DNA of 64,000 nt from Synergistaceae bacterium (lineage in GTDB: Bacteria > Synergistota > Synergistia > Synergistales > Synergistaceae), in NCBI GenBank assembly GCA_031269245.1, contig JAISZL010000032.1, positions 20,153 to 84,152 on the forward strand. The letters run 5' to 3'. The position numbers were made by a program, and so were the translations under genes. The notes beneath the pieces are model-generated. The model was given only the letters and a program-made list of their open reading frames with translations, had not been told where the DNA came from and made no database searches. Of the stretch, positions 1 to 3,513 are shown piece after piece (the first letter of the stretch is position 1; each line of letters starts with the position of its first letter).

Positions 1-1004
1 GACGGATTGACCGGCGCCACCTTTCTCAGGAAGCCGGTACCCCGCCCGCCCACCTCGTACTCGAAGTTGAGCTGAAGATCTTCCTCGTAGACGTCATATC
101 CGTCTTCGTCGGTTTTTTTAGGAGACAGCTCCCTGTAAAACATGAATGGCAGAAAGCTCTTGCCGGCGCCCTTGGCGTAAACGCGGAGACCGGCCCCCGT
201 CGTGACGCGGAAGATGTACTTGAGGTAGTTACTAGGAGAAATTGATTGATAATAGAGTTTCGATAAATTAGTATATAATAGAGAGCCTGTCGCAAAATTG
301 CTAGGAAATGTATATTTACCCTCCACAACTCGGTAAAACTCATCCACAGGGGTTGCGACATACTTGTAACCCTCCTCGCCGAAGAGCGCGACGACGACAT
401 ACCGATGCTCTAAATCCCCGCTTTTTGGAAAATCCGCGCTGGCTGGAGTCACCGAGTGCGGAGCTATTTTATCCCCCAAGAGGTCGTAAACTTCGATTTT
501 GAACCCTGGTTTCTCAGGGTCGTGCGTCATTGCTCCTGAGGCCAATCGAAAAGTGGCGAGATAAAAAACTTGCGTCTCTGGGGTATCCTTCACAACGAAA
601 GTGCCCCTTCCCGTGACAGTGTGTCCGCCCTGACCCCCCGGCCTGTAGGAGAGCTCGAATGAGTCCACCCCCGGATCACACGTGAATGTGGCTGTTTTGG
701 CGGCACTAGCGCCAGAAAAAGAATTTCCCGTAATGTCATGCGACACCGGGAATTGTGCCGGGTCGACCAGCCCTCCCTCGGCACCCTTGCCGTTGTATAT
801 CGATAATTTCAAGTTAAGTGGATTTTCAGGAGTAAGTACCTCATCACCTAAAGAAACCCCCCAAATATTTCCTAACGCGCCGACGCCTACATTTGCAATA
901 CTATACATAAATTTAACTGTAACAGCGAAAGCCGCGTTCGGCAACAGCAAAAACGCGAGCAACGCTGCGCAGAACAGAGACAGGCGAAAATTTTTGCCGC
1001 TCAC
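1..1004 (-). CDS. Secreted protein of unknown function, partial (runs off window start)
   Basis: Open minus-strand frame from GTG at 1004 (RBS AGGAGGAGGATGAAG just upstream) to the window edge; N-terminus VSGKNFRLSLFCAALLAFLLLPNAAFA|VTVKF is a clear signal peptide. Not in the supplied ORF track. Confidence 0.75.
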   Translation of the reverse strand, partial: MSGKNFRLSLFCAALLAFLLLPNAAFAVTVKFMYSIANVGVGALGNIWGVSLGDEVLTPENPLNLKLSIYNGKGAEGGLVDPAQFPVSHDITGNSFSGASAAKTATFTCDPGVDSFELSYRPGGQGGHTVTGRGTFVVKDTPETQVFYLATFRLASGAMTHDPEKPGFKIEVYDLLGDKIAPHSVTPASADFPKSGDLEHRYVVVALFGEEGYKYVATPVDEFYRVVEGKYTFPSNFATGSLLYTNLSKLYYQSISPSNYLKYIFRVTTGAGLRVYAKGAGKSFLPFMFYRELSPKKTDEDGYDVYEEDLQLNFEYEVGGRGTGFLRKVAPVNP

Positions 1005-1098: not shown

Positions 1099-2034
1099 CT
1101 ATCTGTATATAATGTCGGGGAAGTAGGAGTGGTACATCTTAAAATCGTCGTAGTCGCCTATCGCGAAGATGGCGAGCGCGTCCTCACCCAACCGATAGTC
1201 GTCATACCCGACGTACTCGCTGACGTTGTCTCGCGTGAACGTGCCGCTGCCGCTCGGGTAATACACGGCGTACAGCCAGCCCTCCCCGCTGCCTGGGACA
1301 TGGGTTACGCCGTTCATGTCCACGATGTCGTTTATCGTCTGGGTCTGGCTGAATTTGTGATAGGTCGAGATGACGTATGGGGCGGAGAGCGTGCCGTGCG
1401 CCACAGCGTCGAGCGGCGTCGGGTACGACCTGCCGTAGTCGCCTGGGACGGTGTCGTAGTCGTCGTTGCCGTTCACGACCTCGAACGCGCCGGCCGCGAA
1501 GTAGCTGGTCGTAGTCGGATCCGCGTCGTAAAACTCGATGCGGATGCCGTTCACCGTACCGGAGTCGGGATGGGCGTAATCCGTCCCGACGAACGAGAAG
1601 CTACCATTAGCGCCGGACGTCGGGTCGCCAGCCATCCAACTGTCCGGGCCCACCGAATTCGCATTGTTGCGCGCGAGCACATATAGGGCAAAGCCGCTGC
1701 CGGTCGGGGATATGTCAGCCGAGTAAGTGGCCGTGAGTATCTCCCCGTTTTGCATCCCCGGCGTACTCTGAGCCCATTGCAGAGACAGCGCCTCCTGCGC
1801 GGTCGGGAAGCCCTCGAGCACAAAATCCCCGCTCGCGTCTTCGACCACCTGAACTATCTCCAATGGAAAATCTTCTGAAACTCCGAGATCTGCCGTATAC
1901 GTGTTTGGCCGGGCCGTCCCGGAAGTCCAGAAGTCAGCCAACCCCACCACGTCCCCGGCCGCCGCGAAGGCGGCCCCAAACGTCGCCGCGACCATCAAGA
2001 TCGCGAGAGCCATTGCGGTAAAGATACGCTTCAT
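1099..2034 (-). CDS. Secreted protein with DUF4430/transcobalamin-like C-terminal region
   Basis: Signal peptide MKRIFTAMALAILMVAATFGAAFA; start placed at internal Met after RBS AGGAGG. C-terminal TPLDAV...INDIVDMNGVTHVPGSGEGWLYAVYYP...DDYRLGEDALAIFAIGDY follows the GW-Y-V / L-x-x-x-D pattern of DUF4430 domains. Confidence 0.6.
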   Translation of the reverse strand: MKRIFTAMALAILMVAATFGAAFAAAGDVVGLADFWTSGTARPNTYTADLGVSEDFPLEIVQVVEDASGDFVLEGFPTAQEALSLQWAQSTPGMQNGEILTATYSADISPTGSGFALYVLARNNANSVGPDSWMAGDPTSGANGSFSFVGTDYAHPDSGTVNGIRIEFYDADPTTTSYFAAGAFEVVNGNDDYDTVPGDYGRSYPTPLDAVAHGTLSAPYVISTYHKFSQTQTINDIVDMNGVTHVPGSGEGWLYAVYYPSGSGTFTRDNVSEYVGYDDYRLGEDALAIFAIGDYDDFKMYHSYFPDIIYR

Positions 2035-2383
2035 AACTTTAACGTTCCTCCTATTTTTAATGTCGATGCCGCTCCTCACGGCGTCCCCGCGTTGACTCGG
2101 GACGCCCGCCGAAAAACACTCTTCGTCAATCATCCTACCACCCCTTTCTAAACCCAGTCACCATGCGAGCACGCGTCAACAGCGCGAGCGCCCGCACGCC
2201 CAAAATACCTCCCGCGGCATGATGCGTGATGCGAGGGCGCGAAAGGCCGCCAGCGAGAAAACACCCCGCCGTGAGACGCGCGAAAAACGTATATAATAAA
2301 TAATAAGAGGAAAGAAATTTTATCTCGGGAGAATGGAGCGCCGCACCGCCGCGCGTCTCCTAGAAGACGGCTATTGGATGAGA

Positions 2384-2428
2384 GTATGTATGTATGTATG
2401 TATGTATGTATGTATGTATGTATGTATG
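2384..2428. repeat. Tetranucleotide microsatellite (GTAT)~11
   Basis: 45 nt of uninterrupted GTAT units. Confidence 0.98.
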
Positions 2429-2604
2429 AGGGTGCCCGATCCAAATCATGTGCGCATCAGTAAAAACCACTATTCTCACCTCCTCGCTCGTCTGGGTCAA
2501 AGAGCGCGAACCAACAGCGCCCACGCCACGCGCGGCCCGCTTCATGCCAATATCCGATGCTCGGCTGCGTGGGAGGATGCTCCTCTTGGTCGATGAGCGA
2601 AACA

Positions 2605-2640
2605 CAAAAAGAGACCCTCACATACGCGTGAAGGTCTCCC
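2605..2640 (-). terminator. Intrinsic terminator downstream of cobalamin riboswitch 2
   Basis: Minus strand GGGAGACCTTCACGCGTATGTGAGGGTCTCTTTTTGTG: strong stem plus T-tract. Confidence 0.85.
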
Positions 2641-2702
2641 GTCGCTCTTCGGCTCGCCGTCCCGTGACGGCCACGTGTGCAGGGGCAACGCATCGCGCGT
2701 TC

Positions 2703-2847
2703 ATCCCCGCGGGTCTCCTGGCTCTCGTTCCTCCTACTCCCACGCCTTCCCGCCCATTACGGACAGTGGCACGTTACAATAGTGGTTTCGTCCCGATTAC
2801 AGTGGCGCGGCCGCTTCGGCTTTCAACCGAATTCCTCTCGCCGGGAT
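2703..2847 (-). promoter_or_regulatory. Cobalamin riboswitch (copy 2)
   Basis: Minus strand contains GCGCCACTGTAATCGGGACGAAACC, B12-box GAGAGCCAGGAGACC and P1 pairing ATCCC/GGGAT. Confidence 0.92.
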
Positions 2848-2897
2848 GTCTCGTTGCGCCATGAGTTCGCCCCTCTGGGCTTCCCCATGACAACCCC

Positions 2898-2927
2898 ATT
2901 ATACATCCACCCTCCTCCAACTGTCTA
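2898..2927 (-). promoter_or_regulatory. Sigma70-like promoter for riboswitch 2
   Basis: Minus strand TAGACA-N18-TATAAT just upstream of riboswitch 2. Confidence 0.55.
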
Positions 2928-3185
2928 TAACAAAATCAAAAATAAAATTTCGCAAATGAGCGATCGCGCAAGAGTCCGTCTAATATCTTTTCAATAGCAA
3001 AGACACAAACGCCAGTTTACCGCGTATGCTTTGACCATTTATATAATACATCACGGACAAGAGTTTTTAGGCAGGCCCTTAACGCGGGGAGCCGGGCGAA
3101 TGGAACCCGGCTCCCCGAAGAGCAAAGAAAGGGGTAAATATGGTCGCTAAAACATTGTGGCAAGCAATGTTAAAGCCAAAATAAA

Positions 3186-3215
3186 GAGGGAACCGCATCG
3201 ATGCGCGGCCCCCTC
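3186..3215 (-). terminator. Intrinsic terminator downstream of cobalamin riboswitch 1
   Basis: Minus strand GAGGGGGCCGCGCATCGATGCGGTTCCCTC followed by TTTATTTT. Confidence 0.7.
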
Positions 3216-3265
3216 CAATAACCTTGGAAGATGACGTTTGTGCCCGCGCACCGTCATGTATCTTG

Positions 3266-3409
3266 CCTCGAAATCTGTCTCCTGGCTCTCGTTCGTCCTA
3301 CTCCCGTGACTTCCCGGCGTGTCATCCATGCCAGTGTCCTTGCGGTTTCGTCCCGATTACAGTGGCGGGGCCGCTCCGGTCTCTCACCGGATTCCTGTTT
3401 ATTTCGAGG
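3266..3409 (-). promoter_or_regulatory. Cobalamin riboswitch (copy 1)
   Basis: Minus strand: perfect P1 CCTCGAAAT...ATTTCGAGG, GGAATCCGGTGAGAGACCGGAGCGGCCCCGCCACTGTAATCGGGACGAAACC, B12-box GAGAGCCAGGAGACAG. Confidence 0.96.
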
Positions 3410-3435
3410 GTGTTGCGTATTCTTTTGTTGAGCGA

Positions 3436-3464
3436 ATATTACAACAAACGGATAGTTCTGTATA
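3436..3464 (-). promoter_or_regulatory. Possible promoter for riboswitch 1
   Basis: Minus strand TATACA-N17-TAATAT. Confidence 0.4.
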
Positions 3465-3513
3465 TAGCGATCTGGCGAATTTAAGGGACCATTTGCCGTT
3501 GGATAAAAAATAA

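Follow-up and report, generated by a model that had tools for sequence, protein, structure and literature searches.

The window analysed here, 64,000 nucleotides in length, corresponds to bases 20153-84152 of an 84 kb contig (C24) in the 2.34 Mb draft genome of a Synergistaceae bacterium (G000), which is assembled in 98 contigs. This genome carries 14 cobalamin riboswitches above the cut-off and one just below it, the highest count among 53 genomes of its family. The relatives that bear names are Synergistaceae MAGs, which we presume from the names of the isolates to come from termite guts. On the minus strand of the window, two cobalamin riboswitches in series precede two genes for secreted proteins, with the following arrangement:

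3464-3436, minus strand: promoter 1 (weak), TATACA-N17-TAATAT
3458-3255, minus strand: cobalamin riboswitch 1, RF00174 by cmscan at 81.7 bits (E 1.4e-18), full model
3216-3185, minus strand: terminator-like hairpin 1, 13 bp stem and T-rich tail
2927-2898, minus strand: promoter 2, TAGACA-N18-TATAAT, 11/12 consensus matches
2835-2713, minus strand: cobalamin riboswitch 2, RF00174 by cmscan at 76.7 bits (E 3.9e-17), model positions 47-167
2640-2609, minus strand: terminator-like hairpin 2, 14 bp stem and T tail
2476..2484, minus strand: Shine-Dalgarno sequence AGGAGGTGA of a leader ORF
2360..2470, minus strand: leader ORF in its present phase, 36 aa, VVFTDAHMIWIGHP...
2385..2428, minus strand: tetranucleotide repeat (CATA)11, lying within the leader ORF
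1099..2133, minus strand: gene 1, ORF for a secreted protein with a signal-peptide-like N-terminus, start ATG at 2133 or 2034
1..1004, minus strand: gene 2, secreted protein of 1028 aa, extending beyond the window

Both RF00174 scores lie far above the gathering score of 31.5, and at the gathering threshold these two units were the only Rfam matches in the 64 kb window, in agreement with the original prediction of two minus-strand cobalamin riboswitches at this position. The match of riboswitch 2 does not reach the outer portion of the model, but pairing CATCCC with GGGATG by eye gives a possible outer helix, with which the unit extends over about 2703-2847. A promoter-like site had been proposed upstream of each unit and was found in both cases. 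Promoter 2 is the top promoter match within the first 6 kb of the window, while promoter 1, which agrees with the consensus at 8 of 12 positions by hand count and fell below the cut-off of the promoter scan, stands in register in the homologous mtaB leader on contig C43. The terminator proposed downstream of each unit is upheld by the conservation of both hairpins in homologous leaders, the terminator pattern alone showing no excess over expectation (7 matches vs a shuffle mean of 6.0). As had also been stated, no gene-like ORF lies between the units; the gap between the two aptamers is ~410 nt, with promoter 2 inside it. Judging from the promoter positions, ligand-bound RNAs from promoters 1 and 2 would measure ~250 and 290 nt, respectively. 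Complementarity between L5 and L13 of the riboswitch platforms was seen in unit 1 and in some relatives at a level not above chance, and a kissing loop is therefore not claimed. Past terminator 1 there are two extra hairpins without a T tract (3181-3079), recognisable by eye in leaders of C43, C26 and G023 (L021, L018 and L124).

Two readings of this arrangement had been offered, namely stacked two-promoter control of the downstream operon and the production of B12-responsive small RNAs. Taken further, the second would have one or both units sequester an ANTAR regulator as Rli55 of Listeria and EutX of Enterococcus do, with which they share a B12 aptamer followed by a terminator at which a short RNA would end. 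Plentiful B12 should give such a short RNA from each unit, and at another locus of the genome (L187, G000:C42:3500-10500) the gene for a protein that has two ANTAR domains neighbours an eutA-like ORF. The motif bound by ANTAR domains is a double hairpin with hexaloops that carry A at position 1 and G at position 4. No ANTAR-type double hairpin was found in 1.6 kb of leader, so that an RNA of the Rli55/EutX type is unsupported; moreover, unlike Rli55 and EutX, the units of the window stand in cis before an operon, and homologous units directly precede operons as well. With its defining element absent from the leader, we consider the small-RNA reading very improbable.

Two-promoter B12 control is the better of these two readings. 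It fits the anatomy of the locus, with the reservation that unit 1 is an orphaned copy and may add little. Twenty-six AdoCbl riboswitch doublets have been recorded as pseudo-cooperative, with gaps of more than 300 nt left out (PMC9481103). Like those doublets, the window has two complete cobalamin riboswitches, each with a terminator, in front of one operon and with no ORF between them; unlike them, it has a gap longer than 300 nt, holding a second promoter and an insertion-sequence scar. Given a gap of this length with a promoter inside, serial two-promoter control describes the locus better than a pseudo-cooperative tandem.

Among the matches listed, two congeners have same-strand RF00174 pairs no more than 1 kb apart, G023 (C340) and G029 (C198). 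The former pair precedes a PocR-domain sensor gene; in the latter the upstream unit has its own VVFTD leader ORF (see below) and no gene, and the product of the gene after the second unit is a 756 aa secreted protein with a DUF4430 stretch. Ten of the 11 genomes in the genus have the gene that lies upstream of the array, RF00174 is absent from all nine relatives' contigs that bear this gene, and four relatives' contigs read directly have different genes after it. Gene 1 was found only in G000, in three copies (paralogues on C89 and C54), and in G029. The missing array beside the neighbour gene in relatives, together with the rarity of gene 1, marks the array as specific to this lineage. A different arrangement, a divergent pair of cobalamin riboswitches, lies between mtaB and a periplasmic binding protein gene at G000:C43:50672-51210, and G030 likewise holds a divergent pair on C189.

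Comparison by blastn with other loci of the same genome divided the leader into three modules, with a scar at the junction of the first two:

3079..3468, minus strand: module A (unit 1), 81% over 397 bp to the mtaB operon leader, G000:C43
2970..3085, minus strand: insertion-sequence scar, two IS ends abutting at ~3019/3020
2603..2955, minus strand: module B (unit 2 and promoter 2), 87% over 356 bp to a TonB-receptor operon leader, G000:C86
1951..2554, minus strand: module C (leader ORF, repeat and gene 1 start), 87% over 623 bp to G000:C54

The operon gene on C43 is the methyltransferase gene mtaB (PF12176), so module A is a copy of the mtaB leader without its mtaB gene. The TonB-dependent receptor on C86 has TIGR01779, a B12-receptor model, as its best NCBIfam match (E 2.8e-40, below the model cut-off), and the C54 match of module C spans both leader and gene start. 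The 141 bases between modules A and B gave 17 other matches in the genome, each to one half only, and on C49 an IS4/5-family transposase ORF lies between one half and the other. Because the halves match separately and flank a transposase ORF, the A/B junction is assigned to an insertion-sequence scar, a feature that the original prediction missed. Derivation of unit 1 from the mtaB operon leader, joined via insertion-sequence recombination, is the best explanation for this structure. A relative of modules B and C was seen at L033 (G000:C32:3921-6935), with the same promoter, a terminator remnant, the VVFTD head and a CATA repeat, the aptamer being gone.

A mosaic of this kind could in principle be an assembly artefact in which leaders of different loci were fused, as the genome is in 98 pieces and some of the other IS-end copies are found close to the end of a contig. 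Against this, the modules are just 81-87% identical to their homologues, the scar of ~115 bp is shorter than a read and the contig is 84 kb long, and we hold an artefact to be extremely unlikely. Harder to dismiss is the view that only unit 2 works, unit 1 being a decaying relic of the IS rearrangement and the tandem functionless as such. The loss of the native mtaB gene, the weak promoter 1, the scar that follows the unit and the array missing downstream of the conserved neighbour gene in relatives all agree with it; the aptamer match of unit 1, on the other hand, is still full-length at 81.7 bits and followed by a terminator, and stacked pairs are also present in G023 and G029. We put this view somewhat below even chances. 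The tandem departs only modestly from what is already known, and it probably arose as a by-product when leaders were shuffled.

A second element missed at first lies past terminator 2, where the sequence reads AGGAGGTGA-gaata-GTG GTT TTT ACT GAT and, after 27 nt more, (CATA)11, the only short-unit repeat of the window. The leader ORF starts with GTGGTTTTTACTGAT ('VVFTD'). Its three possible phases end 22, 234 and 11 nt past the repeat, the present one being 22, and one CATA more shifts the stop to 2150-2148, 14 nt short of the gene 1 ATG. The window with n=11 therefore reads as the off state, and n+1 would take ribosomes to the start of gene 1. With a 4-nt unit, indivisible by three, and a position within a leader ORF that has a Shine-Dalgarno site and is presumably translated, the tract has the sequence pattern of SSR phase-variable loci. 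The leader ORF and its repeat probably matter more for the operon.

This leader is one of a family. The genome holds the 15-base head, RTGGTTTTTACTGAT, 12 times without a mismatch and the reversed pattern not once; 11 of the 12 heads are followed, 40-46 nt past the start, by a tetranucleotide repeat of CATA, GGCA, GACA, CTAT or CAAG. Six heads stand behind an RF00174 match (on C24, C54, C73, C68, C89 and C12, the last just below the cut-off), the head on C91 stands behind a weak match (22.6 bits) and that on C32 behind a unit whose aptamer is lost. The head is present in 19 of the 53 family genomes and is joined to a repeat in at least one copy in 17 of them (G000 and 16 relatives, from genera g1, g11, g12 and g13); two head-bearing genomes, of genus g6, have no repeat. 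Repeat number across the loci ranges from 4 to 22. When one genome per species was scanned over 85,462 species with a 19-base form, 20 contigs were returned, 16 of them from Synergistaceae; 14 of these 16 have the repeat and the 4 other contigs do not. Exact head matches in Bacteroidetes, Bacteroidia, Phycisphaerae and Methylobacter had no repeat and were discarded as chance, and the five two-mismatch copies read in G000 were all without repeat and considered decayed or chance.

Three short, divergent cobalamin-like aptamers (G000:C89:24796-24948, C12:495-643 and L151 2811-2681 on C91, with 33.1, 28.6 and 22.6 bits) all precede a VVFTD leader and are perhaps a variant class. A second type of head (ATG TTA TTT ... 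RDFE), followed by (GCAG)n, was noted at L189 (G000:C70:2500-4300) and L188 (G000:C65:3500-4897), with a signal-peptide-like stretch directly after the repeat on C70. Finally, L191 (G000:C43:53500-55200) has (TCTG)16 in the signal-peptide region of a small secreted-protein gene with no VVFTD head, and is a classical intragenic SSR.

The effect of repeat length was evaluated by computing the leader ORF stop for each of the three repeat phases, with independent loci defined by blastn clustering (n=28). At 14 of these 28 loci one phase is free of stops for 90 nt or more while each of the other two ends within 30 nt, compared to a mean of 2.5 such loci under dinucleotide shuffles of the downstream sequence, none of 1000 shuffles reaching 14; the early stops are due in part to a short CT-rich stretch, which may be shared by descent past the blastn clustering. 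The end of the on phase overlaps the gene start on C32 (TAATG), C12 and C54 and at L082 and L091, and at L067 and L086 the open frame continues into a signal-peptide-like stretch. At other loci the gap between on-phase end and gene is often ~100 nt, and on C73, C33 and at several G026 loci the longest phase stops well short of the gene. The long phase is the one in the assembly at 4 of 22 clear-cut loci vs one third expected of a free-running switch. In the 60 nt past the repeat C exceeds G at 39 of 46 loci, vs 0 of 49 just upstream of the start, a bias that resembles a Rho loading region and is suggestive only. Gene 1 has its own Shine-Dalgarno site and could thus be translated whatever the leader phase, which counts against a frame gate. 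Its homologue in G029 (L180, G029:C35:3200-4699) follows a riboswitch, a terminator and a leader ORF in the same order, with C14 and AT tracts in place of the tetranucleotide repeat, an argument for selection on a slippery tract in itself.

The repeat might instead be a neutral or structural microsatellite, with the leader ORF untranslated and the 15-base head acting as a DNA or RNA element. The head is in fact almost invariant in nucleotides, with very few synonymous changes, as this explanation would have it. Nevertheless, a Shine-Dalgarno-like 5-mer is present at 43 of 49 loci, the first codon is exchanged between ATG (14/49) and GTG (35/49), and a synonymous head variant (ACC) still has both its repeat and its Shine-Dalgarno site; in another variant (ACG), from G029, only the Shine-Dalgarno site is kept. 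Repeat units measure 4 or 8 nt, and none is divisible by 3. Together with the frame pattern described above and the frames fused to signal peptides at two loci, these observations make a microsatellite of this kind unlikely, and we favour a translated leader whose frame is set by the repeat.

No family in Pfam or NCBIfam was found for genes 1 and 2, and a single-sequence structure prediction of gene 1 was uninformative (pLDDT 31.6). Gene 2 shows 40% identity over 506 aa to the 756 aa protein behind the G029 tandem, for which no solved relative was found. The DUF4430 stretch of that homologue belongs to a domain that we take to be related to the C-terminal domain of transcobalamin, and by this analogy is a hint that the secreted proteins may have to do with corrinoids.

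Taken together, it seems to us rather probable that the mosaic leader gates the secreted-protein operon twice, by a serial B12 gate and by a random reading-frame gate. In the first step, two complete riboswitches of the B12 OFF type would act in series: transcripts begun at promoter 2 would have to clear terminator 2, and those begun at promoter 1, the weaker of the two, both terminators. As every transcript would have to clear at least one B12-controlled terminator, the operon would be transcribed only at low corrinoid, a step based on how RF00174 riboswitches with terminators are known to behave. Beyond terminator 2, ribosomes would start the leader ORF and enter the (CATA)n tract, presumably hypermutable, where slippage would set the frame and repeat length would decide whether they reach the start of gene 1; this step is deduced from the pattern of repeat phases. 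At two of three lengths they would meet a stop within ~25 nt and leave more than 200 nt of leader untranslated, turning the operon off probably by Rho-dependent polarity or lost coupling. At the third length the leader would be translated up to the start of gene 1.

SSR contingency loci with tetranucleotide repeats are known from Haemophilus and Moraxella genes, mostly within the gene or its promoter. The window resembles them in having a tetranucleotide tract in a putatively translated frame, where slippage should switch the frame. It differs from them in that the tract sits behind a riboswitch and, as usual in this family, belongs to a leader ORF of its own that precedes the gene and carries the common 15-base head. 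A broader proposal, which we rate at a little under even, is that copied phase-variable cassettes, each with a Shine-Dalgarno site, VVFTD head and frame-shifting repeat, are spread across numerous operons in these Synergistaceae, including some for secreted proteins and for chemoreceptors, and act by frame-dependent translation of an upstream ORF. Here, stacked behind B12 riboswitches, the cassette would make an AND gate of a metabolite and a random genetic switch for corrinoid-related secreted proteins.

Literature searches on riboswitches combined with slipped-strand phase variation, and on phase variation in Synergistota, found nothing relevant, which is weak evidence. Tandem B12 riboswitches are known, and we found no description of a slippage-controlled frame gate behind a metabolite gate. 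To judge by the literature searched, the proposed phase-variable leader family has not been described before, and it carries most of the interest of this locus. The frame gate predicts that output depends on repeat number modulo 3. If true, SSR phase variation would extend to Synergistota, and one reusable leader could make a whole set of operons phase-variable, which would suggest that members of a gut community hedge their bets on surface functions, possibly the capture of corrinoids.
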